DNA from: Enchytraeus crypticus
Taxonomy: Eukaryota > Annelida > Clitellata > Enchytraeida > Enchytraeidae
Length of the DNA stretch: 64,000 nt
Assembly (NCBI GenBank): GCA_905160935.1
Contig: CAJHZI010000431.1
Location: forward strand, 2,318,001-2,382,000
Direction: 5' to 3'
Of this stretch, positions 10,843 to 57,039 are shown one piece after another (positions within the stretch are counted from its first letter, which is position 1; every line of letters begins with the position of its first letter). A model generated the notes under the pieces. It searched no databases, had not been told where the DNA came from, and saw nothing but the letters and a program-made list of their open reading frames with translations. A program made the position numbers and the translations under genes.

Positions 10843-11119
10843 ATTTATCGGTCTCAGATCTCTCGCAGAATTTAATACCAATGTTTATCCAGACTTCAGG
10901 TACTTCTACAGTATGATACTAATGTAAACGTTTACCTTGTGTCACTTTAATCTGCAAATTTAACAAAAGGGTGTAATTGAAACTTTCACAGTTGTATGTT
11001 GGGAGTATTAGGCTACTATTAATTATAGAAATTACGGAATTAATGAGTGATAAAAAGTGTTAAAATACTACAATGCGATTTCATCCAGTCCGATGTAGTA
11101 GGCTAACTAGCACTATATG

Positions 11120-11329: not shown

Positions 11330-13800
11330 GTTCAAACTAATAACAACAATAATAATAATAATAATAATAACAATTAGAGTGCTACAGTCATCAATGACAA
11401 CATCGAGCTCTATGGAGACAAAATCAAGCCGGCGAGCAAAAAAGAAGGTCCAAAAACGGTGCAAATTCCAAAATCCAGAAATTCAGTCCAAAGTAAAGGG
11501 AGTTAAAGAAAAGGTGGTTTAGGCGCAGGTCGCTGCTCATGGACACTGGATGGAAAAGAGAGATGGAAAAGATAGGTCTTCAACTGCTCATGGAACTGCT
11601 CATAGGAAAGCAAAAGCTGATGTGATTCAAATGAAGATTTCCGAAGATTAGATGGAAGAGAATTCCAGATCTGAGGTGCAGCATGCTGAAAAGAACGATC
11701 TGATAGCTTAGAGCGTGAAGGTAAGCTAGTTCTCACAAGAGTAATTAATTTAGAAAACCGAGTAACAGCAACAGCAGGCTGCATCACTTTAATCAAGTGA
11801 GACATACAAGTTTGTCCAGTGATGGTGATGGACTTATACGTTAACGAAGCTGTTTTGTAAATGATGCGCTCTTTAATCTTTAGCCAGTGCAAAGACTTCA
11901 AAATAGGCGTAACATGCGAGTACTTGGAACTACAAAAAATTGCTCGCGCAAGAGAATTCTGAACAAACTGCAACCGATCTATCTCACAGCCAGGGAGATT
12001 TAAAAACAGGGAATTGCAGTAGTCCAACTTCGATTGCACAAGAGCAGAACCAATTGTAGCAGCTGTCTCACGTGACAAATATGGACGTATTCGACGAAGA
12101 TCACGGATATGGAAGAAACATGCTTGTGAAGTTTTAGTTATGTGTTCGTGGAAGGTTAGGTGTTTATCAAGGATAACACTGAGAATTCTCACAGAAGAAA
12201 CAGGTGATATTTTAATACCCGAAGATAACGAAAGAGATTTCCCATTCAGCTTCAGAAGCTGTTGAGGTGTCCCGATCAACAAGAATTCAGTCTTAGATGG
12301 ATTAAGTGCCAAGAAATTAGCAGACATCCAAGAGGATATAGACTGAAAACTTTGTTGCAGGAGGGTTTCAGCATTAGAATAGGAGTTAGGGGTGAAATAA
12401 GTGTACATTTGAGTGTCATCAGCATATAGTTCATGATCAAGAGAATGAGAAGAGATTAGAGTGCTTAGGGGTATTGTATAGAGGTTAAAGAGGATAGGAC
12501 CAAGAACGGAGCCTTGAGGCACACCATACTTTAAGTGAGAAGGCGAAGAGATGTACTCCATCAATTTCACACCAAAAGAACGATCCGTCAGATAGGAGGA
12601 AAACCAATCAAGAACAATTCCACGAACACCAAACCAGGAAGAAAGACGTTCCAGAAGAATATTATGATCAATGGTATCAAAAGCGGCCGAAAGATCAAGC
12701 ATCCAGTTAAGCGTTGTGTGCGCATGGCATTAACAATAGAATTGCACACAGATAGAAGCACCGTTTCAGTTGAACGATGCTTAGTATAAGCAGCTTCATG
12801 CTTATTAAATAGATCATTGTAAGAGAGATGAGTAGAAAACCTCTGAAGAACAATTCTGTCAGTGAGCTTAGATATGTATGACAGATTAGATATAGGCCTG
12901 TAATTCGACAAGAATTCCTTATCCAGTGTGAACTTTTTAAGCAATGGAGTAATAACTGCACGCTTAAAAGCGCGAGGAAATTTGCCAGTAGAGAGAGAGA
13001 GGTTAACAATCAATGTTAATACTGGAGCAAGTATGTGAATACACTTCTTTAAAAGAGAGGTTGGGATAGGGTCCAAGTCACAATGTTTAGCTGGAGAGTC
13101 TAAAATTAATTTAGTAATCTCATCAATTGTAACTGTAGTGAAATTAGAAAGTTCATCTTTGGAATGATTCTCTACTGGAGTATGAGGAGTAGAGTTAGGA
13201 GCTGGAGTGATAGATTCTTTAAGATTGCTTATCTTACCTGTAAAGTATTTGGAAAATTGTTCAGGCAGTGACTCCACAGGAGTAGAAGGAAGAGAAGGAG
13301 AAATAGATCTATGTGAAAGATCATTAACGGTTTTCCATAAACTCTTGACATTCACAGCCTTACTGACCAAAGAGGAGTAGTACTCTTTCTTAGCAGTAGC
13401 AATAGCAGTACGATAGATCTTGTGTTGCAAATTAGAAACAGTTTTCCAAAAATCTGAATGGGTATGACGCCACTTTCTTCAGCTCTACAGCATGCAGCCT
13501 TTAGCTTTCTCAGACCAGAAGTATACCAAGAGTTAGATTTCTTAAGCGTCTTGGTAGTTAGAGGTGCTTGCTTATCAAGTAGAGATGAAAGAGTGGTGTT
13601 ATACTCTTTTACTAATTCGTCAAGATCATTAGCAGGAGACTTGATCAAAGTCGAATTTTCAAGATCAGAACAAAAGAGATCAAGATCAACGTTATTTACA
13701 CACCTAAATGAAACAGTAGGTGAATTTTTAATAGTATTAAACGTTCCATATCCACGCAGGAAACTATATTTTACGTTTGTTTCCATATCATAGAGCTCGA
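11330..13800 (-). mobile_element. L2/CR1-like LINE, 5'-truncated, about 2.5 kb
   Basis: Minus-strand pieces give, in order, the linker between endonuclease and reverse transcriptase (13786-13400), the fingers region with 'NYRPISNLSYISKLTDR' (to 12705), then DLSAAFDTIDHNILL, GVPQGSVLGPILF, YADDTQMY, LNPSKTEFLLIGTPQQ and a C-terminal region with APQIWNSLPSNLRKS, ending near 11503. Two frame changes (around 13400 and 12705) show that this copy is broken. The 3' UTR runs to an (ATT)n tail at 11337-11370. The motif set is that of the L2/CR1 side of the Jockey superfamily; the exact clade is inference. Confidence 0.9.
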
Positions 13801-22800: not shown

Positions 22801-25773
22801 CAGAGAAGGATTGAGAGAGTGGGCAGAGAGACATAGAGAGAGATAGACAGACAAACATGCAGAGAGAGCAGACCTGGCCACTGCCTCAAGTTTATCAAAC
22901 ATCCTGCCGTCAACCATAGATATTTCATCTATGATAAGATGTCTGCACTGTTTCCACTGCTGCAACACCACAGGTCTAGAAGCCAACTCAATGCAGCGTG
23001 GTAATTCTGCCGTGCCTGACCCTATACCTGTAAGACATCAGCCGTGAAGTGTTAAAAAGGCCAGTAGTCATTAATTTATGAGGATGAAAGCATTGCATCA
23101 AAATATAGTGAATATAGGGTATAATTAATGGATATTATAATAAAATGCTTGGTTTCAATTGTTGATGTAGCACTGGTCATGCGATAATCTTGCTATTACA
23201 AATTAATTATGTGATGTCACAATACTTCCACATATAACCACTATAATCCACTAACTTGGCACAACACTTGGAGAAACCTATGATTTGTTGATCCTACACT
23301 AAGTCTGCATTCGAATTTTAATAACAAGTGTAGCTAAATTCAAGAACATATTGTAGGTTTTAGCGGATAAATGCATCGGCCAATAGCAGGTGAAAAATTC
23401 AACCACGAAGCCAAAGGCTGCATACATTCTAACCAATGATCTACTGATTTTCTGGAGCTGAAGTCATCAGATAAAATGAATCCATATTCACAATATCAGT
23501 AGCAATGCTTAGTATAGAAATCTCGATACCACCACCAGCTGATAACCTACGATTGTCCTAATTCACTGATACACTGATTGAATTCTAGTCTCAGTTCAAA
23601 AATACGAACAGGAATTATTACAATAGGCAAATGTACATATAATTGCACACGCTTACAGACAGATATATAGATCGCCTACCCGAGAAGGCGTGTAGCGTAG
23701 TTCCTCCTATGTGACAAGCAGCTACTCCGGTACTTGCTGTTACGTAAGTGTGCTCAGGCGGCAGAGAGCCTAAGCAGATGTTTAAAATGTGTCATTATGC
23801 TGACATTATCAGCTGATTTGTATGCGCAACTACGTTCTAAAAATATTACCGTAAAAACAAGTTAATGGCGGATTCTACTTGGAAAGCAGAACACTGGGCG
23901 TTAGCAAGCACTGGATTTGAACTCTACATATACCAACAGCAGTTGGACAATTTATCACCATGGTTTCGGTTCAACCCAGCATAAATTTAATTATAATGTT
24001 TAGAGAAGAAAAATAGACAACATATATAAAAATATAATATACACATAATGCATATATGTTTATGCAATTAACAGACACATTTAGAGTAGCTGCATGTATA
24101 ACATTTATAATTATAAGAGGTAGATAAAATAAAGTAAAATTGCAATATGTATAATTTTTGTATAAAAATTGTATATATTAAATTATATAAATATTATATT
24201 TGTTTCTTAAACAGATATCACTAATCTCCAATGAAATGACAAATCTGGGATGGGAAATTGGGAAACTGACAATCTGCACATCCAGCTGTTCACACTCACT
24301 CATTAGACTAAGCAGGATATATCCGAACCTTTGTGCAAAAACATTTTACAAAAAGTTAGCATACTAATTAGTAAGGATAAGCAATCGGCTAAAGGTAATG
24401 GCATCCTTGATATTGTCTTATGACAAGGAACCGCAAGTTAAATACTTATTGATTGATTTTTATAATTACAAATAATTAGAATATTACCAATGATTCTCTT
24501 CAGCAGATGAGATTTGCCAGTTCCAGCACTGCCAGTAAAGAACAGGCTCTTCCCACTTAGTACTGCAGATAGAACTCTTTCTTGTTCCTTAGTCACTGAA
24601 GACTTGATAGACAGCTGGCGTAGACCAATCCCATTTGACTTGACACTGCTATTAACACCAAGCGGGCTTTTGGTTAGCTGTGGACTGTCACATAGCTTCC
24701 TCCTCAGCAGGCACGGTTTCTAAAATATTAACAGTATTGGAATTTAATTCAAGATTTACTTTGATGATAAATGTTTGAAGTTTAGCTTCTCATTAATTTT
24801 AATTTCTTTATAATTTAATAACTGTATATGTTGTTAGAAAAAAATAAATAATGTAAGCATAATATAAATGTTTAAAAGGGGATCATACATATATTATACT
24901 ATATAAATAGTCAATAACATGCACTATAACGAAATGATCATCCATGTATACAGTATAACCAGTCCTGTGAATAATGAATATCCAAGATTTTACTCTCAGT
25001 TTAGCGCAGCCGAGAATAGAACTCACGAGAGTTCACTTCACCTCAGGATCTGTCATTTAAAATTTCATGACGTTACCTGATGCCTTTAACCACTAAGCTT
25101 TGAACCAAATGACATTAGAGGTAAATATTCACAATTATCTTCAGTGAGTAAGCTAGAAACAAGCACATTAAAAATATTTGAATTTAGAATTATCTACCTT
25201 CGCACCGATATTTTCCTTATCCTTAGAGCTGCTGTACTTTCTCTTTCCAGTAGGTGTTGTTCCCAACATTATCTTTCCAGAAGGCTCACGTGTGCTATCA
25301 TTGCTTCCCACTCTCCTTCTTGCTTCAGCATTCTCTACATCACAGGCGGTCAATGGGCTGATTTCAGTGAAAGATTTCGGTAATTCAGAGAGTAAACGCT
25401 GACGAGCGGTTAATGTAGGGCACGCTGCAGTGCTGCCACTGTGTGCCGCAGCCAGTTTTATAGAAACCAAGCTAAGAAAGTCTCTTAATGCATTAGGAGG
25501 GCAGTTTGATATCATGAGCTGAATTCGAAAGTCTGAAGATTTGATAGTTGTCTTTCCTTCATTGATAAACTTTCTATGAACCGTAACTTTACGCACATCA
25601 AGCGACAAGGGTGTGACTGAATTAACGTCTGCTTGCAGTAAGATTTCACCAAATTGGTTTCTGCCAGCAACCAGAAGTGCATCACGTTTTATAGTCCTTT
25701 TCGTAACCTCACCCATTGCTGATAGATGCTCACAAGTGAGAGTACACTGAAGTTCAGCATGCTTCTCCGACAT
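16806..25773 (-). CDS. PIF1: ATP-dependent 5'-3' DNA helicase PIF1
   Basis: Eleven exons: 25773-25198, 24719-24488, 23769-23680, 23027-22874, 22365-22251, 21629-21523, 20925-20783, 20317-20211, 19838-19751, 18431-18286 and 16994-16806. Together they make 1947 nt, 648 residues plus a stop; human PIF1 has 641. All junctions are GT-AG and all phases close. The first exon encodes the N-terminal domain with the [12 protein letters not shown] signature. Helicase motifs follow: Walker [30 protein letters not shown]-type motif Ia; Walker [19 protein letters not shown]; then [19 protein letters not shown] and [13 protein letters not shown]. The family unwinds DNA, including G-quadruplex and telomeric substrates, in nucleus and mitochondria. 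Introns carry SINE and LINE pieces, a hairpin and two splice-site arrays. The start ATG is at 25773; no upstream exon is needed. Confidence 0.95.
16977..17600 (-). repeat. 38-bp tandem array copied from the 3' splice site of the last PIF1 exon
   Basis: 'gtatac' (one copy 'gtatgc') starts at 16997, 17035, 17073, 17111, 17149, 17187, 17225, 17263 and 17299, a period of exactly 38 bp apart from the last step of 36. The unit at 16997 is the real acceptor, read on the minus strand as GTATACAG|GGCATGACACTGG. Other units read GTATACAAG or GTATACAG followed by ACTTGACACTGATTG, so each carries the intron end and about 17 bases of exon-like sequence. More diverged units continue to about 17600. Confidence 0.9.
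17642..17925 (-). mobile_element. SINE with RTE-like LINE tail and (GAT)n end
   Basis: From the minus-strand 3' end: (CAT)n on the plus strand, then 'tttagctagggtcgggatac', a stretch matching the end of the LINE at 35645-35960, then SINE-specific sequence to 'aacccggacgcaacacg' at about 17915. Copies of the specific part lie at 1-110 and 32735-32935. It sits in the last intron of PIF1. Confidence 0.7.
17984..18014. repeat. (TA)n microsatellite
   Basis: About 13 TA units in the last PIF1 intron. Confidence 0.95.
18375..18865 (-). repeat. Approx. 98-109 bp array copied from the acceptor and start of PIF1 exon 10
   Basis: 'ctaggca' or a close variant begins at 18422 (real exon), 18520, 18629, 18727 and 18835, giving spacings of 98, 109, 98 and 108. 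On the minus strand each copy holds an acceptor-like TATTGTAG followed by GTCTGCCTAGAATCAAGTTC-like sequence, homologous to the first 35-40 bases of exon 10. Copies become more diverged with distance from the exon. Confidence 0.85.
18870..19745 (-). other. PIF1 intron, unique AT-rich sequence
   Basis: Rest of the intron between the exons at 19838-19751 and 18431-18286. The 88-codon frame at 19635-19369 is not supported by motifs. Confidence 0.5.
19930..20035 (+). mobile_element. tRNA-like SINE remnant in PIF1 intron
   Basis: 'gatcctgggctcgcccgttactgat', 'gacgaaactgacgctaaca' and 'ggctttacagct' follow the SINE at 11120-11275. The head is degraded. It lies antisense to PIF1 in the intron between the exons at 20317-20211 and 19838-19751. 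Confidence 0.6.
20698..20758. repeat. (AG)n-rich microsatellite
   Basis: Imperfect GAGA runs in a PIF1 intron, close to the donor site at 20783. Confidence 0.85.
21144..21242. repeat. Inverted repeat, 47-bp arms, 5-base loop
   Basis: The arms 21144-21190 and 21196-21242 are complementary with a single mismatch (within 'aaggtc' versus 'aagatc'); the loop is 'ataca'. It lies in the PIF1 intron between the exons at 21629-21523 and 20925-20783. No TE ends are visible, so local fold-back duplication is a simple explanation. Confidence 0.9.
22655..22725 (-). mobile_element. 3' end of RTE-like LINE or its SINE
   Basis: (ATC)n followed by 'cttaaatcccagtttaacc' and 'ggatcgggctacgaataga', the minus-strand end seen at 35650-35710. 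Only the last 70 bases are present, inside a PIF1 intron. Confidence 0.75.
24885..25110 (-). mobile_element. tRNA-derived SINE with (ATT)n tail group
   Basis: Minus-strand order: 'ttagtggttaaaggcatcag' (A-box region), 'gatcctgaggtgaa', a degraded B box, 'gagagtaaaatcttggat', 'ggttatactg'. It matches the better copies at 56431-56700 and 62465-62760. It lies in the first PIF1 intron. Confidence 0.7.
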
Positions 25774-25914
25774 TTCCTCCTCTGATCTGTCTGTGTGATA
25801 ATCCTATAATGTTTGCAACTAGAATGTAATTTAAACAATCATAAATAAAATTCTATAAACAATATTAAAAACCCTACTAAAAATTTAAAATCTTTAATAA
25901 ATAGGTTCTCTCAT

Positions 25915-35460: not shown

Positions 35461-38400
35461 TCATCTTCTAGAGTTGTATAATTCAGGCTGCCTAAGTTCA
35501 CAAAGAGTACGATACACGTCGCGTTCAGAGCTGCAATAATAAATAGACAAATATGACAATTAAATATTTGATAAAGCGATAGGAATAATAATGTGGGGAC
35601 GTCACTGGCATCATCCTTTGATGAGGAAACGGACATCAAACATTTACTATTCATCATCGTCATCATCTTCCCTTAAATCCCAGTTTAACCAGGGTCGGGA
35701 TACGAATAGACTTTCTCCAGTCCTCCCCATCCCACACCATATCATCAGTCAACCCCCTATTTTTCATGTCCTTCTTTATTACCGCATCCCACGTCAATTG
35801 TGGTCTTCCTCTCATTAGCTTAACATCCAGGTTTTCCCTCCAAACTCTCTTTACTACATCCTCATCTGTCTTTCTCATAAAATGCCCATACCATTTCAAT
35901 CTCGACTGAGCCAACCTATCCCCAATCCCCTCAACATTCAAATTCATCCTCACATAATTTTATTCGTTTTCCATCTTGTCCCTCCTAGTTCTAGAGAATA
36001 TTAGACGCAATATTCTCATTTCTGCCATTTAATAGCATTTAACAATAACCATTTATTATTATTATTGTTATTATTGTAATTATTAATCTCCATCACACGA
36101 GGAACAGCAATTACATATATTAGGTATATATTTTTAAGAAATTAATGTTACAGTAGCAATTCACTGAAAATAACTGTTATCAAGAAAGTATGAATAAATT
36201 TAAACAGGAGCTAACAGTTCAGGATGGCTTGTGATGGCATAATTCTAATATTAAGAAAGGCTTAAACTAAAAAAAGTTTATCAAATGTCAAAATAGACAG
36301 TTCTTCATCGTGCCATCTCTTTCTCTTTACATTCATCTTCAGTTTTGCTGCTCATGCACATCCGCTCTCTCGCTCTCCTTTCTAGTCCGAATATACGCCA
36401 ATCAGTGTACATGAATGTTAGATGTTCAAACTTAGTTAAAATTTAAGCCTATTTGTCGTTATATGGAAGTTGGACGCCCGCAGGAAAGGATAAAATTAAA
36501 CAAACTAATATATGAATACATTTAACAAGTTGCTATATCAAAAGTAACTGCTACTGCCACTTCATCCACGATGCAAATATGTAGCTAACAGAGGCAAAAA
36601 TGACATAATAATTATTGTTTTAAAATTACATCAATTATTTTCTATTTGAAACTAAAAATTCCACAATAAAGAACTATTTAAGAACGCCAAATCTACTGGA
36701 GAAGATAGGAAGCTAATACCGGGATATAATGAAATTGCTATTTTAACTGTTTTAAACTTTTAAATAATTTTCAGTTTATATTATTAGAAAGTATCACATC
36801 CAAACTATCCATCACAGTACTAGTACAGTCTAGTATAGTACCTTGACAATGAGACGTCGGTAACAGGGCGTCCGAAACTCTTAAGTAATTCATCCAGTTT
36901 TTCAGGCAGGCGCTTTTTCAACTCTCGACATGTACATACCAGCGCCTGCAGAAAATATATCAGAAGGTAAATATTTAAGGAGTAAAATATGCCACTGTAC
37001 AAACTTTACACTCACTTTTTCTAACAGATAATTTGTATCGTTTTAAAAGCTTCAATTTCACAGTTTTTAATTAATAGACATTAGAAGAGCCATTTAGGAA
37101 GTGTGAGTGAAAACTAAGGCAAACTGCACGGTGCACACGGCCATTTACCTGAGAAATCAAACAATTTACTCTTAAATTCATCAAATTAAATTTCTAACAC
37201 GAATAAATTATAAAAGCTCAAACGAAAATTTTATTTTATTTAAATTTTATTTCAACTTGCAAAATAAAATCATAAAATCGTAAAAGTAAGACATACAATG
37301 CAAAGTCAAGGGTAGATCTAAGGCTCTTGGCACTTACAAGGACCCTTCGCATACACAAAACTAATAGTAAAATTAATAGAAAGAATGCAGATTATATCGC
37401 ATAAAGCAATCAATCATGACTCCAATTGAGATGCAATTTAGTGTTGGGAATATGTTAAACCATTGTATCCATATTTAAAATCATTACTAGTTCTCTTAAA
37501 GAGTTAAAAGTTTAAAATGACACCTGGCTTATAATAAATAACAGTAAAGCTTAAGTTATTAAAAGCTTCAAAACGTAAGAAGTGACTTAGATAAGTAATA
37601 GCGATAGACGTGTTAGGCCTATTTAAAAACTAGGAATTTAGATAAATTACAAGCACGCACACATATATGTACAATGTACATTGTATAGGTCTATATAGAA
37701 AAAGGGCAAAATTTCACTACTTTATAGTTTTACTTCTATTACGTAACTGAAAACAGGTTTACAACATGCAAACCTGTTCTAGATCCTAGATCTAAACTTC
37801 GAATCCCAGATCTTCAATGTCTTATACATTTTATTACGAATGATTAATTAATTGTATGCTTTGTAGACTTCGAGAAGGCCTTTGACATGATTGATGTCAA
37901 AGGCCTTCTCGAAGTCTACAAAGCATACAATTAATTAATCATTCGTAATAAAATGTATAAGATTGATTGGATAACGATGATGAATATCTTAAAAAGAATA
38001 GGAATTGACTGGAGATATAGAAGACTAATTTTGAACTTGTACATGAATCAAAGAGCAGTAATCAAAATCCAACAAGAATACTCAGAAGAAGGCGAAATAG
38101 GACATGGAGTAAGACAAGGATGTAGCATTTCGCCGCTGCTGTTTAACATTTACGCTGAGGCAATGATGGAGGAAGCCATGGAAGAAGGAATAAAAGTAGG
38201 AGGGAAATTGTTACAAGATGTACGATTTGCAGATGACAAAGGAATGGTAGCGAGTAGCGAGATTAGACTGCAGAAGATAATGGATTGGCTGAATGATACG
38301 GCATTGAGCTATTGTATGAAGATTAATATAAAAAAGACGAAAGTTATGAGAGTGTCCAATAATAAAGGTGAAGTTAATATCACAATAAATGATACGAAAT

Positions 38401-41400
38401 TGGAACAGGTAAGGAGTTTCAAATATTTTGGTCATACTATAACAGATGACGGGAAATGTGAGACTGAAATATGCAGTAGGATTGCACAAGCAAAAGCGGC
38501 CTTTGGTAATAGAAAAGAACTATTAATAAAAAGTCTGAAGAAAGATACAAAGATAAAGATAGTGAAAAATTTGGTTTGGACCACGCTATTGCATGGTTGT
38601 GAAACATGGACCTTAAGGAAGGAAGATATTAGGAAACTGGAGGCATTGGAAATGTGGATTTGGAGAAGAATGGAGAGGATTAGTTGGACTCAAAAGGCTA
38701 CAAATGAGGAAGTTCTGGCGAGAGTTGGCACAGATAGACAGTTGATAAATGTATTAAGAAATAGGAAGTAAAGTTGGATAGGACACATTCTAAGGGGGGA
38801 AGGTCTATTAAAAGAGGTAAGGTATAATGGAAGGAAAAAGAGGCAGGGGCAGGCCGAGATTAGGTATGTTAGATAATTTAAAGACCCACTCATATGTGGA
38901 AATGAAGAGGAAGGCGGAAGACAGAGAAGAGTGGAAGCGTTATATACCATGGGCCTGCCAGTAGGCAGTGCACTGAGAGAGTGAGAAAAATTAAGCGACA
39001 CTAATAACCTGTACTGATTTTGAGATGATATCGGTAGCAGCGTCAGTATGATGTTCCATACATTTTTTTACTAGATCAACGTAAACCTTCTCAACGATAC
39101 TTTCAAACACATTCGGTGGAGAATCCTATGAATAAAACAAAATAAAGTTAAACCACATGGGGATTGTAGAAAATTAAGTAGAAGATTTTACATCAAGACA
39201 ATCAAATCAGATTAAGCTAACTAAGACAACTAAAGAGCGGGTTATGTAACATCGTTTAAAGATAGTTGCTATATGATTAGTTAATCTTCATTGGAGTATC
39301 CAAGTCCTTCTACACACTGAACTGCAGACAGAATATCTCGAGTACATTCATTTATTCTAGGTGCATCAATCTAGATCATCTCTAGTTGAGATTTTTAGTA
39401 TCCCGTATCATGGCAACTCCAACAAAGTCTTTGCAATGAAATCTTTTTGATGTTTGATAGAGAATGTTAATTATAAACTAATCAATCATTAATTTATTTT
39501 AATTTTTTAATTTGAACGGCAAATCTAGTCTAAGCGGCCTGGTCTAATCTACGTATAAGCAGGCTTTGATAGCGAGATTATTAACTGAGGACATGCTAAG
39601 CGTCACTATATTATAAAATGTCGACATATATCACACTTAGGACATAGCGAGAAAGATTGTGAAAGAGAGGAAGACATAAGAATGAGATAGAGAATATACA
39701 ATGCAAATTGAGCAATATTTACCATCAGCTGAATGCACAGATGAGTGGCAAAGTTGAGGCAAATACTTAGTTGTTTCTCTTTCATATTAGTCTTTTCAGA
39801 ACCACCTCCAAATATTTTACGAAATCTAAATAAAATAACAACAAAACCTGACATTGTCAACCAGTAAACTCCAACAGACGACATCGTTCAAGGGTTATGA
39901 CGAGACGTTCACTAATACTTCATACAACCGTTCAGACCCTTTTTCCTTTCTTTAGTAACAGAGATCATTCTTCAGAATATTTTTACTTCTTTCTGTGTTA
40001 CTATATTTAATGTATATCGATATACAGTACATGGAAGTTCCTATGATGAATGGTAACGCAGGCAATTTGCCGACTATAAACAATAAACCTATAGTCTCAA
40101 ACTGTGTACATTTTATAATAATAACAATAATAATAATAATAATAATAATAATAAAGGTTTAACTTCCGTTTCCTCATACAAGGATGATGTCAGGGACGTC
40201 CCCCCATCACATGTCACTACAAATCGATTCACCCCAAACGATCTGAAAAAAACACGTGCTGAAGAGAAATAAAAGATCCTAAACAGTGTCGGTCCGGTGA
40301 TTAAAAAAAACAGTCAGGCAAGACGAAATAAAATCTATGGTGGGAAGAGATGTGTTTTCAACTTACAACGGAAAGTGGAAGTAGTAAAAAATGAGCGAAG
40401 ATTGGGAGGCAGAGAGTTCCAAACAGTAGCAGCAGAGACAGAAAATGAACGTCTACATAACGAAGTGAGAATATTAGGAATTTTGAGCAGTCTGGTATCG
40501 GAAGAACGAAGCTTACGAGAAGGTCGATATTGGATTAGGAGATCAGAAATTAAGGTAAGAAGGTTTACCAAAAAGAAGTGTTTTGAAAGTTAGCAGAGCA
40601 ATTTTACACTTAATTCTTTGAACTACAGGAAGCCAATGAAGGTTATTAAGCAAGGAACTAGAGGAGGCTTGAAGCCTCGAGGATCGACAGACAACACGAG
40701 CTAGAGTATTTTGAACGCGTTGCAAACGCATGAGAGAAGAAGAAGAAGGTAAACCATATATCAATGAATTGCAGTAGTCAAGTTTAGAATGAACTATTGA
40801 GTTAGCAAGAATTATGGATGAATTTTTTATCAAGAGATGACCGTATCTGTCTGATTTGACGAATCTGGAAGAAAGATGAACGATAGACAGATGAGATATG
40901 AGATTTAAAATCAATGTTTTCATCAAATATGACACCAAGGTTTTTAGTCTTGGGAGTAGGAGTGAGAGCAAGATTTTGAAAATAGATGAAGGAATTGGCA
41001 ATTTTGGTTCTTTGCTGGGGTGTGCCGATTAGAAGATATTCGGCTTTAGAGGGGTTGACAGTGAGACGATTACTGCAAAACCATGAATAAACTTTGTCAA
41101 GAACAGATGAAAGGTGTTGTAATTTCAAGTCAGAATCTGAGCTAGAGAATGAGATGTACAGCTGAGTATCATCAGCATAGAAGTGCAATTTTATTGAAGC
41201 ATTGTCCAAGACATAACTGAGTGGGGTAGTGTAGAGGAAAAAAAGTAAAGGTCCAAGTACAGATCCTTGGGGCACACAAAGAAGAAGAGGTAGTTCAGGG
41301 GAGCATTCATTGTCTATAGTAACAGATTGAGTGAAACTAGAAATATCACAGAATATTTTCAGAACTTCTTTCTCGCTATATCCTCTGCTGTTTATTCTGC

Positions 41401-45590: not shown

Positions 45591-48500
45591 TTAAATAATT
45601 ACCAATGTACTATTTTCTAATTTATTACACTCAACGTTTAAGTTACAAACCCACAGAGAGGATATGTTGACCACATAAGCTCCATCACTACAACCAATCA
45701 ACAGTCGATCTTCATCAATAGCACAGGACTTCCTTGCCTCGAGTAACTTAAGACTATCGCCATAGCTCTTCTGAGATAACTCTTCATCTAAAAAGATCAA
45801 CTCTCCACAAGAGACGACAAAACTTGTCGTGGGGCTATGTAGTATCGCTACATGAGCTTCCTCATTACTGCTCTTTATTTTCTGCTCTTTATAAACTTTA
45901 GGACCGTTAATATCTATGGTGTATAGAGTAAAGACTTTATCGGATTTACAGCTTAACAAATAGCGGTTATCTGATATCTGTACACTTTGTACAGCTCTCG
46001 TACAAGCAGTTGGAAGATTTTTTATCTTTTTGTTTCCGTTGCTAGGGTCATAGAGATTTATACGATTGTCTTTATCTACTATCAGTATATCACCAGCATT
46101 TGACAAAGAGAATAAGGCTTGCTTAAAGGGCAGCGTGATGAACTTCAAGCAGTCCTTGTTTTCAGTAACTTTGTAAACAATTCTTGCATTCTTGTCTAAT
46201 ATGAACAAACATTTGTTAATCTTACATGATACCATGTCAGAAGGATCGACCAACTTCTCAACTACGATATCGTTTACCTCATCTCTGTCATAAGGTTTTA
46301 TCGATGTAAAGCAGAGTAGTTTTTTACTATTTCTACGAAGCACATACATTCCTTCAAGAAAGCTTGCAACGCCAATAATATCATTCTCAGATGTTGAGGT
46401 TAGACGCACAATCGGTTCATCCGGTTCATCATCATTATTGTGCGGTTCATCAATAGCCGAGTCAACAGATTCTGAATCATTTTGTATCTCCACATCATTC
46501 AGGGATTTATTGCCAGGTAGTAAAGGTTCTTCATCATCGCATTCATCAACTTTTGCTGCAATGTTTTCACCAGGATTTGGATTCTCCTGCGCTGTTTTAC
46601 ACTCAATATCCTGCTGATAACTGGCTGGTTCGACCACGCTTTCTTTGTTATTCCCTTCAGACGGAGCACATATTGAAGTTTTCTCTTCGAGTGGATTCAC
46701 TTTAGGACTGTGGGAATTAATACCCAGTTCCTTCAATGATGCTTTAGCTGAAGGTAGTTGCGATGATTCAGGCCTCACCCTAACAAGGTCTTCTGCTCGA
46801 TCGTATTCAGTATTTTTAGTATTTGGTTGAGCAGAAGAGAAGCTCAGGCTTGATTCAGCGCGTGGTTGCTTCTCTCCCATAGATATTGAAACTTCTGGTT
46901 TCTTAGATACAGAAAAAAATAATTCCGGTAAATTTCCAGAATCTATCTTGACCAGAATTTCCTCCGCAGACTGATTTGCTATCAAAGGTGTTATAGGAGT
47001 GGAATCAAAGTCTGTACTGTTGTGACAATTGTCGGCTTGATTTTTAAATATGCGACTCTCATCATAGTCGCCGTTGATCGACCTAGACTTACCACTATTG
47101 ATACCATTTCCAAAGATCTTACTTAATTTACCTGAATAAAATCACAATCAACAAAAATTATATAAGGCGCAATACCAAATTAAACATGTTAAAAATCAAA
47201 GCGGAGGACTTTTTCGATACTGCGATCATTTATATAACTCATCAACTGGAAGTACAAGCTGACAAATAGAACGGGGAGATTTAGAAGGGTTTCTAATATA
47301 GCATTGTCTTCTACGATAATTATTAAAAAATCGCAATAGCGCATGTTTCTTCAAATATTTAAAATATTCACAAAAACAAGATCCTAAATTTCACGTTACC
47401 CTGAACCGGATTTTTGAGAATGTTAAACAGTAAAGAGAGAAGTCAAATCAATTCAATTCCTGTCATATCAAAAAAGAGTGTCATATACGACGACTGAAGA
47501 AGAAAAAGACTGCAATATCTCTGATCTCTACCATCTCTTCTTTCAATTAAATCAATGACGTCAATTTCTGGATGGGCCCGGATCAATCTGTCTATACAGA
47601 TATACGCGCATAGTGATGCGGAATTACACTAATCAACATAAACACTAGAAGTTCTCAATCAATAAGTCTACTGTAATACTAAATTATATTTATTTTAGAG
47701 CATCAAACTCACTTAATCCCTTGAAACTCTTAGATACACAACACTATCTACCTTAGTTCCCGACCCTAGATAAAATAGGATTCAATGGAAGGCGGTGATA
47801 ATTATCCAACACTATATTTAAAAAACGTTAAAAGAACAAATTTCAACTAGTGAACGCTAATTTTTCAAATCATGAGAATCCTTTATGTAGACAGTTCTTC
47901 AATAACCAGAAAACATTTCTAAAACACAAAATTATGTTTTAGAAATGATGTATTTAACCTTACTGAACAAATGTCTACAAAATGCATGGAGGCTTATGAT
48001 TTCATTTCATTTCAGTCTCATGTTGCTGACTTTAACGTTAGTAACGACATCTGAGAAGGCATAAACAGTGCGCATGCTAAAATGAAAAAACTTGTACAGA
48101 TCGTCAACAATTGGTATTTTATAATATGTTCATTTGCAATTATAAATGACAATTTGGCCCAAAGAAATTTTCATATACACTGGATTAAATAGAAGAAAAC
48201 TAACTGATAATTTCGCAGATTTATTTCAATTAACTCACACAACTTACAAACTAACTTACTCACTCACATAAGTGTAACTAGCTTACACTGCAGTCCATAA
48301 GGGCAACCTGCTTCATATCTCTGCACTCACATAAATGGTTTCGTTACATACGCTTATCTGCATCAAAGCGTGGTACTCGAAATTTATGTTGTCTATGCGC
48401 TATACAAATAACAAGTTCTTGAACGCTAAGGTAACGCCTAACTATACCTGATAAATCAGCACAGTACTATCCCAATCAATCAAAAGTTTAACTAGAGGCA

Positions 48501-51500
48501 AAAAGCAAAATGTTAATTAAATTTCATATGAACTTTGAACAGTGAAAGGCTTATCATAATGACTAGAAGAGTCAACTTACGTCTACAGACGATCGCAAAA
48601 CAAACGATAATCAAGAGAACAGCCACCAATATCGCCACTACAATCCACATCAACTGAGCTGCATCTAAATCATACAGATCAAATGAATTTAGACAAATAA
48701 ATTCTAAATACATTTGCATAGCAATACCAGTCAAACAGAATATTTCAAGTTATAGGCCCATTTCAGCAAATTTCGATCTGAGATCGATTTCATTTTTTAA
48801 ATATTTCTAATGTGTATACAAAAAATGAATTATATAAATTTATGTGTGACCACAAATTTAAAACGAAAAGCAAGTTCTATTAATTCTACTAACATTTAAC
48901 TTTGGCGATACTCATTATAGCGGTTCTGTGTCTTAATTTATACAAAAGTTTAGTTTCAAATATCAATGGACAAGTAGCAGAGCATTACGTGTCTTCTCGA
49001 TTAGGTAGCAAAGCTGGACAGAGTTTCTTGAACAAATGACTAAAATTTAGACAAGTGAATGCGTCTAGCCGTATTAGTATCACTTTATCATAACTGAAAA
49101 TTACAGTGTGACCATTAATCATACAAAAACTCTTTTCCGTCTTTTCCAGATTGGCATTAATTTAAAAAAATATATTTGGGTCAATTAAAAAACACACTAT
49201 AGCAGTTAAAGAACACACGTAAATAACCAAAGGTTAATATTGCATGCACACGCAACCACTGTATCATGGAATAATTAGTTTTTCATCAAAATCTACTATA
49301 GATAGGCTGCAAAAGTTTTACAAATCTGCGCTGCCAAATATTTTAAAATTCACACAAATATATCACGATCTAAAGTCATACGATTTAAAGTCATAGATAT
49401 AACTTGCAATAACAAGAGGACATCAAAGTACCAGCAGTAAAGAAAGGGTATTAAACGGAATGCATAAGATTATTTCTCAATCGCTCAAGCGTTATAAGAG
49501 GGTGCTGGAATGTTTTTAGGAAGCATATCTCTGTTTTCCATCACGCATTCAGCAATCATATTCCCAATTCTAAAGGACTTGTTACATATGTCCAATGTGA
49601 TCCATCCTTACCATGCACAACGAATTAGAGCTTCTATGAATTCAATTCAATCAATATTACCAAGAATTTAATCAGTATTACGATAACTACAAATCATATT
49701 TATATATCTAAGAAATACATTTGTGGCTAGTATGGAAGTAGGCCTATGGTGCTAGGAGCTAGACACTAAAAGGGAACAGGCGCAGAGTTTGCATGTGGCA
49801 GAGATGAGAATGTTGCGTCTAATGTGTGGTAAAACTATGCAGGATAAAATGGAAAATCAGTATGTAAGAATGAATTTGAGTTTAGAGTGTATTCCGGATA
49901 GATCGGCTCGGTCGATTTTGAGATGGTTTGGTAATACATGTATAGTGAGAAGGGCAGAGAAGGATGTAGTGAAGAGAATTTGAAGGAAGGTGATAGAGCA
50001 AAGGATTAGAGGATTAAAACGATTTGTTTTAAAAGTTTTTTAATGTAAAAACTACGCCCTACCCTAACCATTCCTATCCCAAACCCAAACAAAAACCCTA
50101 ACTCTGAAAACTTTAAAAACTTTGATTTGAAAAACAAAGTGAGGCGAGCGACAATCCAACCCCGGACGCCAGGATCTAAAGCATAATGATGTTTCACTAT
50201 GTCATCGGGGCTTCCGTTCGAAATCCGTTGAACAGATGATGTCAACAGAACGTACTAGAAAATCGTATTGGTTGTTTCTTTATAATAAACAAAGTCCTAC
50301 AGATCTTCCTATTCCAAGTTCATTTTGATTTAGACAATAACTACTGGGTACCTTGATACTGAATTTTCTTAGATAATTTTAAGAAGACCTATTTCTCAAA
50401 AGATAATAAAGTTCTATTTTCCATTTGAGATAATCAGATAATAATACAGTGAAGAAATGATTTCGGAATATGTCTTCGATGACGGAGCAATCAACTTAAT
50501 CTGAGCTGTATTCGCTAGTCAAGGCTTAGCAGCTTCATTTCTTAACCAGAATTGCAGGGATATTCATTTTGCATACAAATTTTCCGGCGCCATGACAAAG
50601 TATTCAGATATCACAATGTCTACAGTACTGAGAGTGGTAATTTACGGATTACTATTAAGAGCTGTATAACTACTTCAGCAGAGGCTGGCGAAGTCGTCTA
50701 GCGAAATTAGTGTCTGATTTTCTTCGTTGATTGAACCTAATTGATAGTATCATCAGCGTCACAGACCGGTTCTAGTCTCTTCTCATTGGCAATGGCAGTC
50801 AATGGTATGGAATATTTTTGTTCCAGAAGCATCACAAACTGTCTAAACTCTAGATTTTCCGCGACCCCTTTTGAAATGCTGGTGCCAAATAAAAAATTGT
50901 TTATCAATGAGGCATTTTTCCATTTCGTTACAGTCCAAGTTGACGGGTTCGAAATTTTTCCGTCAGACTGATATCCGTCAAATATTGACTGGAATAGCAC
51001 TACCTTGTGATCTATCAGCTTTATTCTCTTGTCTCCTGATGCTCAAAGTTAATGTACCCGAAGGGGTTGGGGAGGATTTCGACACCCGCTTCATTTGCAT
51101 TATACATGTTTCTAATAGTAGGAGGCTCCATTAAAACCGCGCATGAGATAAAAATTGACCATTAATTCCTGCCTCCATCCTCTTACCTCACCTAATAACT
51201 CTAATGTTGCTGCTTTCCCCTCATCATGCTCCTCCTCATCATGCTCCACCTCATCATGCTCCCACTCATCATGCTCCTCCTCATCATGCTCCCACTCATC
51301 ATGCTCCTCCTCATCATGCTATCCCTCATCATGCTCTTCTCATCATGCTCCTCCCTCATTAAGCTCCTCCTCATCATGCTCCTCCCTCATCATGCTCCTC
51401 CTCATCATGCTCTCCCTCATCATGCTCCCCCTCAGTGTACCACATAACAGCGCTACAATAGCATATGTCCATTTCAAGAATAACTAACATCATTAAACAG

Positions 51501-54231
51501 CACAAACCTTTCTCTACTGGTGGAACTGTTGTAATCATTGGTGGAACTGGTGGAACTGTTGTAATCATTGGTGGAACTGGTGGAACTGTTGTAATCATTG
51601 GTGGAACTGGTGAAAGCACAACCAAAGTCATATTACAAGTTTTACGGTCCAGAAGCGGGCACTCAGCTGTACACGAAATGTTTCCCGTTTGATTTGTCTC
51701 TGAGACATTGGACGGAGAAAGCTCATTGGTTGTTGCTATCACCTGACCATCAGCTACTCTCCATTGAAACTCACAGTTATGATTGTTCATATCGAGACAC
51801 TTGACCGATGAATTGAACAGTTGAATGATCTTTAGTTCAGGTAATTCTACAACAAGTAAGCAAATCAATATGATAATGATAAAATAAATAGCAATATTAT
51901 TGACATTTTCACAAATCTGTTGCAATATAATTATATAAAAATGTTTAAAAACGTCACGAGTTTATTTATAGTAGTATAATAAAATATATGTAAATTGTAA
52001 AAGCACCTAAATCTAGAAAACACCGAAACAAACAGAATAAAATGTATGTAACAACAAGTAGTCTATAGGCTACAAATGTAGAGATGTTTTAATATTACGC
52101 TAAAATTCTATTTCTTTTAAAATCGGAGAATCTATATTTTTGAAATTGTACCAATTAAAGGACTCTAATAGCAGAATATAACAATTTAATGTAAAGAAAA
52201 CTATCTAAAAATAACATAGAGAACCTATAATGCATATACTGAAAGCTGAAGTATAAATTATCACACACTCCAGTTAAATTTCTTGAATGAAGAAATGAAT
52301 ATTTAGACAAATTTCACTAAACAAAAGACGACTCACAGCTGCAGCACAACCTCACCCACACTATCCTTCCGGAATTTGTTGTTCAGAAAGAAAAATTGTT
52401 TTATAGAACTTTCGATGTAGAAGAAAATCAAATACTATAGTATTCATAATTTTATGATATTCGGCATACTACGGAAACTCTCTCTCTCTCTCTCTCTTAG
52501 TGCATTGTCCATTAGCAGGTCCATGGCATATAACTCACATATTTCTACCCTCTTCATATCAACAAATGAATTAGTTGCCAAATTATCCAACATCCCAAGT
52601 CTCAGTCTTTCTCTGACCCTTTTTCCTTCATACTTCTCTCAATTACTTGTTCAGTAAACCATTCCATCTCAGTATATGACCCATCCAGTTCTTCTTTCTA
52701 TTCCTTACTATATCTATCAATTGCCTGTTTATGGCAACTTTAATTAGCACTTATTCGTCCGTAATTTTGTCTGTTCATTCGATCTTCTCAATTATTCTCC
52801 AATCCACATTTGGAATGCTTCTAGTTTTCTAATATTCTTGTTTCTTAACGCTCAAGTCCTTGTAATGTATTTACAGGTCCCCTAGTATCTAATATGGCCC
52901 CCTAGCAGGAGAATGCACTATAAGAAGTGGTAAAACTTTAACTACTGACTCACCCAGATCCACTCTTTATTACCCACGACACTAATCATGTGTCTACCTA
53001 TGTCGATTCCATCTAGCCCCCGCCATTCGCAACAATATCAGTCCATATTCGATCTCCAACCCCTCTCCACAGCCACAATCCGAACGCCCCTGGTCTTCCA
53101 ACATCCCATCCAAAGTCTATGTCCACAACCCCCCCAGGAGGATGGTCCTCACCAAAGTTCCCACAACCCCTATCCCCCCAGATTTCTTCAAACTCACCCT
53201 GTCATAGAACCCAAAAACCCACAAAGTACACAAAACCCCACCTTCCGCCCTAACCAGTATCGACATGTAACTCGCACTACCCCACAGCCTCTCTGCACCT
53301 TGCCCACATGTGACTCGTACTACCCCACACATTGACCACATGTTACTCGCACTACCCCACACCGTGACCACATGTTACTCGTACTACCCCACAGCCTCCA
53401 CACACCTTGCCCACATGCTATTCGCACTACCCACAGCCTCCCCACACCTTGACCACTTGTTACTCGCACTACCCCACAGCCTCCCCACACCTTGACCACA
53501 TTTTACTCGCACTACCCCACAGCCTCCCCACACCTTGCACTAGATATAGAAATAAGCATACCGTTCAATAGAAGCTCGGAGGAATTCCACATGAACGCTT
53601 CTGGATCAACTGCATTAATATCGGAGCTGCTACTAACAGAAAAGATTATCTTTGACCCTTTTTCTATTTTCAGTAGTTTAACTTCCAACGATGTTTCTAT
53701 TTGACCCTTGTCACAGTGTTTTGTTGAATTATTAAAGAGTGAAGAGGTTCTATTAATGAATTGTTGACTCCAAGCGGAAATGACTTCACCTGTCCCAGTA
53801 CAGTTAATACTACATTCCACGTTAATACTGGTTGCATCTGCACACGCTTTGTCAAAGAACAAGCCTGATTCTACAATGTTGTGCTGACAATCTGGAAATT
53901 TTTCTACATAAAATACACAAAATGCAGATAATGTAAACAAATCGTTACCTAATACATTCTATAAAATGCACTGTTTAAAAAGAGCACAGTGAATGCAGCA
54001 GCTTATCCATCGCCAGAACATATGAGGAGTATATTGCATTGCTACTGCATGGATGATTGAATACAGTGAATATTCTGCATTGATGATTGAATACATTGAT
54101 TGATTGAAAATTCAAAGCTGATCTGAGAGTAAAATTTCGGACATTCACTGGACTGACTACATGGAAAATAGACAAAATAGCTTAACGGATTTAAGATATG
54201 GTATTAAAAGTTGATCATTTCACTAGAATGT

Positions 54232-54262
<31 letters not shown>

Positions 54263-55043
54263 ATGAGGATCTAAGGATATATACTGTACGTGAGCATTTG
54301 AGCATAAAAGACACCAAGATAATAAACAATACTTATAGCATCGCGGGCTGAAATGTGTAGGCAGTTGAGCCATCTTTGAATTAGTCACAAAAAACAATGC
54401 AAATTTTAAAGCAACAATGAAACTTTAAGATAAACTTGAACCAAGATTTTTGATATCAAAATCAACCACAATGCAAATTAGTGACAGTTCAATACATTGC
54501 ACACCCAAACTATAGATCGCAAAAACAACAGATAGATGGCTTAAAATATAAATCTCAATTGATATCGATCAACATTTACATGAAATCCATTATATAAAAG
54601 TTTATCTATAAAAGGAAGTCAGGCGACAACAGCCATTGATAGAACAAAAGAATCTTACCAACAACAGTAAGCTGTGCACTTGCATAATGGCCCGTGTCCA
54701 AACCAAATCCAGAGTTGTCATAGCAAGTGTACTCTCCAGCATCGTCAAACAATACACTTCTAATTTTCAGGTCGTAGTCATCAACTCGAAAACGATCTGC
54801 AAACGGAGACGTAACGACGCCACGTCCATGAAATACATCCACCTCTTGTTTGGATCCCGGTGGTAATTTAGACCATTTGACTGCATATGGCAAATCAGTT
54901 CTGCATTTCAAGACTACCTCAGATCCCACAACAGCAACAACATTCTTCTGCGGTTTTTCAGTTAGGGATGCAGAGGCTACAATCAAAATAAATATAGATA
55001 TATATAAATTTCCTTTTAACAAATTTTGTATCTTTGAGAGCAT
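45591..55043 (-). CDS. Type I membrane protein: three Ig-like domains, one TM, cytoplasmic beta-propeller-like domain
   Basis: Five exons: 55043-54659, 53903-53562, 51846-51508, 48664-48581 and 47131-45591, all joined in phase 1, as is usual for Ig-domain exons; 2691 nt, 896 residues. The ATG at 55043 gives a signal peptide (IFILIVASAS at about 17-26). Ig1 at 27-128 is V-like, with VVLKCR, VKWSKL and DDAGEYTC. Exons 2 and 3 each encode a Cys-rich, N-glycosylation-rich Ig-like domain. Next come a PPMITTV repeat stalk, the segment MWIVVAILVAVLLIIVCFAI in its own 28-codon exon, and a basic CRRKLSK stop-transfer. The tail has an acidic linker to about 620, then repeated beta-strand units such as DPSDMVSCKINKCLFILDKN and NAGDILIVDKDNRINLYDP to about 890, as in NHL/WD-like propellers. 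The combination suggests a surface receptor with a propeller scaffold inside; function and ligand are unknown. Confidence 0.75.
47755..47802 (+). mobile_element. 3' end remnant of RTE-like LINE/SINE tail
   Basis: 'cccgaccctagataaaatag' and 'gattcaatggaagg' match the (GAT)n-group 3' end at 100-145. Only about 45 bases, in the intron before the last exon of the Ig-receptor gene. Confidence 0.55.
48690..49715 (-). other. Ig-receptor intron 3, unique part
   Basis: AT-rich with no recognised exon. It lies between the TM exon and a LINE fragment. Confidence 0.45.
49720..50000 (+). mobile_element. RTE-like LINE C-terminal fragment
   Basis: The plus strand reads AEMRMLRLMCGKTMQDKMEN, then YVRMNLSLECIPDRSARSIL, RWFGNTC and EKDVVKRI. 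This is the AEMRMLRWMCG...NEYVR...RLRWFGH block of RTE-type LINEs and is the same group as 35645-36030 (shared VRMNL and DVVKR). Confidence 0.8.
50040..50245 (-). mobile_element. Possible tRNA-like SINE
   Basis: The minus strand reads 'gatgacatagtgaaacatca' and then 'gcgtccggggttggattgtc', spaced like A and B boxes, followed by a body rich in 'ccctaac'-type words on the other strand. Single copy in the window, so the call is weak. Confidence 0.35.
50737..51130 (-). mobile_element. Possible hAT-like transposase N-terminal fragment
   Basis: An 86-codon minus frame (with an upstream extension in the same area) includes ASLINNFLFGTSISKGVAEN and LEFRQFVMLLEQKYSIPLTA. The pattern 'vENxxFxxfvxxLxxxYxxPxxxxl' is that of the helical region after the BED finger in hAT/ZBED transposases. 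It lies in intron 3 of the Ig-receptor gene, on the same strand. It could also be an unrecognised exon of that gene, but the phases of the flanking exons already fit without it. Confidence 0.4.
51225..51435. repeat. 15-bp minisatellite, about 14 units
   Basis: 'catcatgctcctcct' and variants with 'ccactc', 'ccctc' and one- or two-base indels, in the Ig-receptor intron right after exon 3. Because units are multiples of three and stop-free, several frames are open through it; I do not read these as coding. Confidence 0.9.
51514..51612 (-). repeat. Coding repeat, PPMITTV stalk of the Ig receptor
   Basis: 'gtggaactgttgtaatcatt' plus 'ggtggaactg' is repeated three times in exon 3, encoding VPPMITTVPP units just before the membrane exon. 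The copies are nearly identical, so recent. It lengthens the extracellular stalk. Confidence 0.9.
52477..52875 (-). mobile_element. LINE 3' end, (GA)n-tail group
   Basis: (TC)n, then 'cttagtgcattgtccattag', 'caggtccatggcatataac', 'ccaaattatccaacatccc' and a decayed C-terminal coding region that parallels 38600-38980 in reverse. It lies in intron 2 of the Ig-receptor gene. Confidence 0.85.
53260..53545 (+). repeat. Irregular tandem repeat with 'tactcgcactaccccacag'
   Basis: Units of roughly 21-55 bp built on 'gtgactcgtactaccccaca', 'cctccccacaccttg' and 'accacatgttactcg' are repeated about eight to ten times. The array abuts the donor side of exon 2 (53562) of the Ig-receptor gene and makes open frames on both strands that I regard as spurious. 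Confidence 0.85.
54110..54262 (+). mobile_element. tRNA-derived SINE, 5'-truncated, (ATT)n tail
   Basis: 'gctgatctgagagtaaaatt', 'cggacattcactggactgac', 'ggtattaaaagttgatcatt' and 'atgtgtgttattattatta' match 56525-56700. The tRNA-like head is missing. It lies in intron 1 of the Ig-receptor gene. Confidence 0.8.
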
Positions 55044-56765: not shown

Positions 56766-57039
56766 TAATATAAATTTATCATAAACATATAAATAAAAAG
56801 TAGAGTATAACTGGGCTTACCAAGCTGGAGTATAAATAACAACAACGAACACAGTCTAATAATACTTTGTGCTATCATCTTGTGATGAGAAAGTGAAAAA
56901 TTCACAGATTATCTGAAAATTAAAATAACAATTAGTTATTTAGAAAGTGATACATAGGAAATTTTCACATATGTAAGTAGCCCGCTATGCAAAAGTCAGT
57001 TTCTAGAACAGTTTCAGTAGAGTGGTGTTTAGCCTATGC

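Follow-up and report, generated by a model that had tools for sequence, protein, structure and literature searches.

The window analysed here, 64,000 nucleotides of Enchytraeus crypticus contig CAJHZI010000431.1 (labelled C338; the window is C338:2318001-2382000), carries on its minus strand a gene, designated W, in which immunoglobulin (Ig)-type exons are followed by one exon for a propeller-like cytoplasmic tail. Five exons, separated by four GT-AG introns that are all in phase 1, encode in order a V-type Ig domain, a second domain (D2), a third domain with a repeat stalk (D3), a transmembrane (TM) segment and the large tail (Table 1). As first drawn, the model comprises a coding sequence of 2685 nucleotides and 894 residues. 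The tail exon is open for 512 codons without a stop, for which the chance expectation in the window's six frames is about 8e-12. The initial annotation had joined phase-1 Ig, stalk and TM exons to one large exon for a linker and propeller; the intron borders bear this out, and the observed arrangement of Ig, TM and propeller-like exons at W is confirmed.

Table 1. Features of W and related loci; coordinates are window positions unless a contig label is given.
Feature	Position	Strand	Basis or remark
Exons of first model	55043-54659, 53903-53562, 51846-51508, 48658-48581, 47131-45591	minus	GT-AG, phase 1
Tentative signal-peptide exon MIAQSIIRLCSLLLFILQL, phase-1 donor GTAAGC	56821..56878	minus	one of three candidates in a 9-kb scan
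First-drawn start codon and signal peptide, probably intronic acceptor-tract read-through	54977..55043	minus	stops here in A, B and C
V-type Ig domain exon, acceptor to donor, phase 1 at both ends	54659..54976	minus	Pfam and paralog acceptor
Second extracellular domain (D2), Cys-containing, possibly degenerate Ig-like	53562..53903	minus	paralog columns, weak profile matches
Third domain (D3), possibly Ig-like, with PPMITTV-repeat stalk	51508..51846	minus	Ig_5, repeat, conserved Cys/Trp
TM exon	48581..48658	minus	mean hydropathy 3.67 over 19 residues, then CRRK
Acidic cytoplasmic linker, first part of tail exon	46428..47131	minus	composition, motif scan, identity to W'
Beta-propeller domain, assigned to the NHL type by homology, six blades probable	45651..46427	minus	paralogs, profiles, fold searches
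C-terminal end without conservation, or beginning of another intron (GTTTGT)	45591..45650	minus	homology stops at 45651
W'	C338:1994178	opposite to W	tail 81% identical over main piece, 66% over short piece
A, B, C, D	C338		tail 34-42% identical to W
E	C324		tail 44% identical to W
29 strong V rows	C338 6, C366 11, C789 7, one each C159, C242, C324, C421, C457		

The genome (524 Mb, 802 contigs) was searched once with the W tail and once with the W ectodomain. The tail query returned 26 rows at E values up to 10, and the eight strong ones (E of 4.8e-7 or less) resolve into seven loci, namely W and its paralogs W', A, B, C, D and E. Each of the seven has, 5-18 kb upstream and in the same orientation, a related V exon. 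In A, B and C, read from 10-kb pieces around the window, the exons occur in the same order as in W, with the TM exons read for W and A, and A can be spliced from V to the propeller end as V-D2-D3-TM-linker-propeller with the phases of W. At B the V match holds stops, yet the exon is clean when read, as the match ran beyond the exon end; at D, represented by its search rows, the V and tail matches hold stop codons and the propeller part was open in a later search. Because V and propeller exons co-occur at seven of seven loci and the splice phases match, the Ig and propeller exons very probably belong to one gene, and a separate transcript for the last exon, which the initial annotation had considered, is made unlikely by this linkage in the genomic data. 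The single-gene view taken there proved too narrow, since W is part of a clustered family with six other loci. Ig exons on separate contigs score equally, which suggests that the assembly contains parts of both haplotypes; copy numbers may therefore be inflated.

Comparison with the paralogs bears on both ends of the model. A phase-1 AG acceptor opens the V exon of five loci (W, W', A, B and C), always at the same codon position, and in A, B and C in-frame stops lie directly upstream while the acceptor itself is kept. Because these stops precede the shared acceptor, the signal peptide drawn from the ATG at 55043 is probably a translation of intronic polypyrimidine tract, and the V exon is better drawn as 54976-54659. 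Of the exon first described as signal peptide plus V domain, the V domain stands and the signal-peptide part is probably wrong. The true signal peptide probably lies on an exon further upstream, for which 56878-56821 is a candidate only; B has one such candidate (equal in length to that of W), C two and A none, a degree of conservation insufficient for certainty. At the other end, the stop at 45591 is uncertain because homology ends at 45651, and there W, W', A/B, C and E all have GT at one shared codon boundary, to be read either as the splice donor for another 3' exon or as a conserved Val codon. The propeller domain may be complete at 45651 either way, because three of four distant propellers of this genome (L036-L038, see below) terminate at the same strand, give or take about 8 residues.

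Judged by its profile matches, the V domain of W is a genuine Ig fold, so that W has at least the one Ig domain expected of an Ig superfamily member: V-set is matched over the Pfam cut-off (4.9e-6) and Ig_3 just under it (2.1e-6), and phmmer matched FGFR and antibody light chains. D2 and D3 are plausibly Ig-like. D2 has 20 invariant columns, including Cys and Trp, across four paralogs, and its profile gave weak matches to light chains (best 0.0067) and CD79b (0.035), with unrelated rows among the matches. D3 matches Pfam Ig_5 under the cut-off (0.0093) and conserves Cys and Trp across three paralogs; its profile found no match in the PDB. Thus, of the three Ig domains originally called, V is secured by an above-cut-off match and D2 and D3 are matched weakly. 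The stalk repeat consists of 3.2 copies of a 30-bp unit with 100% match. The intron after D3 contains a 14-copy array of a 15-bp unit (51219-51434).

The TM segment proposed after the stalk is unambiguous and, at residues ~358-380, is the single strong one in the model, which points to a type I single-pass receptor; the TM is clear and the signal-peptide exon tentative. The linker (residues 382-640) contains 48 Asp and Glu against 25 Lys and Arg, and W and W' are 76.8% identical here over 181 aligned codons. A simple motif scan of the W tail identified acidic-dileucine-like strings, among them DEEPLL at residue 581, which is present in the W' linker too; neither Yxx[ILV] nor NPxY was detected. 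The Pfam scan of the W model placed no enzyme domain over the cut-off in the tail. From these motifs, an endocytosis or sorting role for the tail, beside or in place of signalling, is possible.

The domain that follows the linker, about 255 residues long where roughly 270 had been proposed, is probably a divergent NHL-type propeller with six blades. Its identity to the propellers of W', A/B, C and E is 33-82%. The family matches four distant propellers of the same genome (L036-L039) by hmmsearch at E values of 1.2e-10 to 9.9e-8, with matches in both directions, and hhalign pairs receptor and distant propellers at 98.3% over 241 columns. The NHL repeat (PF01436) exceeds the Pfam cut-off in the relatives L037 and L045, and the domain is read as NHL-type because it is kin to the four distant propellers, one of which carries that repeat over cut-off. 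A profile that includes these intermediates (A3) finds TRIM3 at 1.2e-14 and also TRIM2, TRIM71, Brat and Thin. Fold searches with Foldseek and VIA agree with a propeller, and their match lists mix propeller types.

Divergence among the paralogs differs by domain. Between W, A, B and C, V is 58-65% identical, with nonsynonymous divergence (dN) of 0.23-0.31 and synonymous divergence (dS) of 1.0 to saturated, and, the A/B pair excepted, D2 is 27-35% and D3 44-46% identical. A (C338:2396000-2410233) and B (C338:2485182-2499305) lie ~89 kb apart, both outside the window, and their DNA is 95.0 and 99.3% identical in stretches of 8.1 and 6.1 kb that together run from shortly ahead of D2 to past the tail. 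Between them D2 is 81%, D3 100% and the tail 99.5% identical, against 57.8% for the V exons. The pair resembles a mosaic of one tail and two recognition domains, as would suit receptors that vary in recognition and share a signalling end; the near-identity outside V is either tandem exchange or an assembly artefact. For W and W', the dN/dS pairs are 0.069/0.071 in V, 0.070/0.044 in D2 and 0.034/0.065 in D3, on few changes, and 0.118/0.189 in the linker and 0.091/0.147 in the propeller, on small counts.

Both modules of W also occur more widely in the genome. The ectodomain query returned 73 rows at E values up to 1, including 29 V rows at E of 1.2e-25 or less, and a close propeller lies beside 7 of these 29 loci. 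For the V locus at C789:253330, a possible partner is an NHL-type propeller that lies 7.9 kb further downstream in the same orientation and has an apparent phase-1 acceptor. A genome search with the E propeller likewise gave 73 rows at E values up to 1. Seven of these are the close loci; the remaining 66 are distant, lie mostly in open frames of ~280-330 residues and include only six at E up to 0.001. Single-exon NHL-type propeller frames are found across many contigs; L036-L039 and L045 were read, and the others are rows only, mostly weak.

Ig receptors usually read out through kinases, phosphatases, adaptor domains or short tyrosine motifs. For W, the interpretation that we consider fairly probable is that of a single-pass Ig receptor in which ligand binding by V clusters cytoplasmic NHL-type propellers that dock intracellular partners. 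In this model, the V domain would bind a ligand, either soluble or on a surface, and this binding, or clustering of the receptors, would gather the propellers, whose faces could then dock one or more partners, by analogy with the propellers of TRIM-NHL proteins and of SCAP (SREBP cleavage-activating protein). Scaffold assembly, rather than an enzyme or tyrosine motifs, would be the means by which the receptor signals or engages the machinery of turnover or trafficking. Docking appears the likeliest use of the propeller because TRIM-NHL propellers bind protein or RNA through the same kind of domain, and a scaffold role is favoured because the scans of the tail gave neither an enzyme domain over the cut-off nor the tyrosine-based motifs.

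The abundance of propeller-like open frames described above would also suit a different arrangement, in which an Ig receptor with a short or other tail adjoins a separate single-exon propeller gene. This is highly improbable, as linkage, strand and order are identical at all seven close-copy loci including W, a phase-1 acceptor opens the tail exon, the CRRK stop-transfer sequence spans the join and A splices cleanly. Granted one gene, the tail might be a WD40/CNH-type or other seven-bladed propeller instead of an NHL-type six-bladed one. Weak matches of the tail to WD40, CNH (Pfam 0.0016) and HPS6 models in Pfam and the PDB, all under the Pfam cut-offs, and the mixed propeller types in the Foldseek and VIA lists lean that way; the two-way profile matches to propellers, some of them NHL-bearing, and a length of ~255 residues, which fits the six blades of ~42 residues seen in our manual reading of the repeats, make it unlikely. 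Somewhat less unlikely, though still doubtful, is the view that these are adhesion molecules whose propeller merely anchors the cytoskeleton or a sorting complex, with no immune or self-recognition role. The constraint on V between W, A, B and C and the sorting-like DEEPLL of both W and W' linkers are in keeping with adhesion, but the tandem cluster, the A/B mosaic and the W/W' dN/dS ratios (close to 1 for V and 1.6 for D2, from few changes) look more like a recognition family.

Several observations weigh against the clustering-and-docking interpretation. PF01436 has no match in the tail of W or in W', and among the distant propellers scanned for it (L036-L038) it is under the cut-off in L036 and absent from L038. 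A profile built from the receptor propellers alone matched no NHL structure in the PDB, and the NHL link of the receptor tails is transitive, because the profile that found TRIM2 and TRIM3 contained L036-L039. The propeller-like tail first proposed is supported by homology, while structure prediction for it is of low confidence (mean pLDDT, the predicted local distance difference test, 44 and 46; predicted template-modelling score 0.42) and left the blade count unsettled, and Foldseek template-modelling scores of the models, 0.21-0.37 by query length, are low. The gene model and joins of W were read from genomic sequence alone, and the W/W' values in V and D2 are descriptive and come from few changes. 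Beside 21 of the 29 strong V loci the genome propeller searches found no propeller; two of these, read 3.4 and 3.7 kb beyond D3, have TM exons and no propeller there. Finally, with DEEPLL in its linker, the tail could have sorting as its main function.

Parts of W recall several known systems. Like the TRIM-NHL proteins (TRIM2, TRIM3, TRIM71, Brat and Thin), W would have an NHL-type propeller at its C-terminus; unlike them, its N-terminal part is an Ig ectodomain with a TM segment, the Pfam scan of the 894-residue model contained no RING, B-box or coiled-coil family, and its tail lacks a recognisable NHL motif. SCAP is a multi-pass protein with a sterol-sensing domain, whereas W is predicted to be single-pass, with one strong TM segment and Ig domains. 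Teneurins are likewise single-pass surface proteins with an NHL domain, matched weakly by A3 (0.024 at best), but that domain is extracellular and the propeller of W would be cytoplasmic. With Hydractinia Alr and vertebrate paired receptors the W family shares a V-type domain per exon, phase-1 introns, tandem clusters and V domains that vary over shared tails. The tails of those receptors carry tyrosine or other short motifs, and those of the W family a propeller.

If the receptor model is correct, the cytoplasmic propeller would provide a ready-made docking platform, and NHL kinship could connect surface recognition with machinery linked to ubiquitin or RNA. With its members A and B, which combine different V domains with a near-identical tail, the tandem cluster offers a direct test of the idea. 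More tentatively, the at least 29 V loci may form a lineage-specific recognition family that took a cytoplasmic NHL-type propeller from the genome's single-exon stock as a signalling or degradation-coupling module, with V diversified over tails homogenised by exchange; this would be a new way of signalling for an Ig receptor.

Other features were recorded in the genome and around W. COX1 reads AGA as Ser, AAA as Lys and TGA as Trp, as in protostomes and some other invertebrates, a code that argues against a cnidarian such as Hydractinia. Between A and B, at about C338:2443900-2466700, lie open frames (L025-L027) that, by eye, have the look of a Polinton/Maverick-like element. Downstream of the A tail are long Ser/Asn-rich open frames with TNKPPVTKKP-type repeats (C338:2389573-2392006, minus strand), which have a 75%-identical partner downstream of the B tail (C338:2479770-2481203). 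Within the window, two long minus-strand open frames at 5554-10884, with no Pfam family over the cut-off, presumably resemble DTHD1; an exon at 25171-25803 encodes a PH domain of LRR1 (PF25344, 1.1e-12); and reverse-transcriptase frames are present at 11503-13478, judged by eye, and at 37935-38768 (RVT_1, 4.9e-14).
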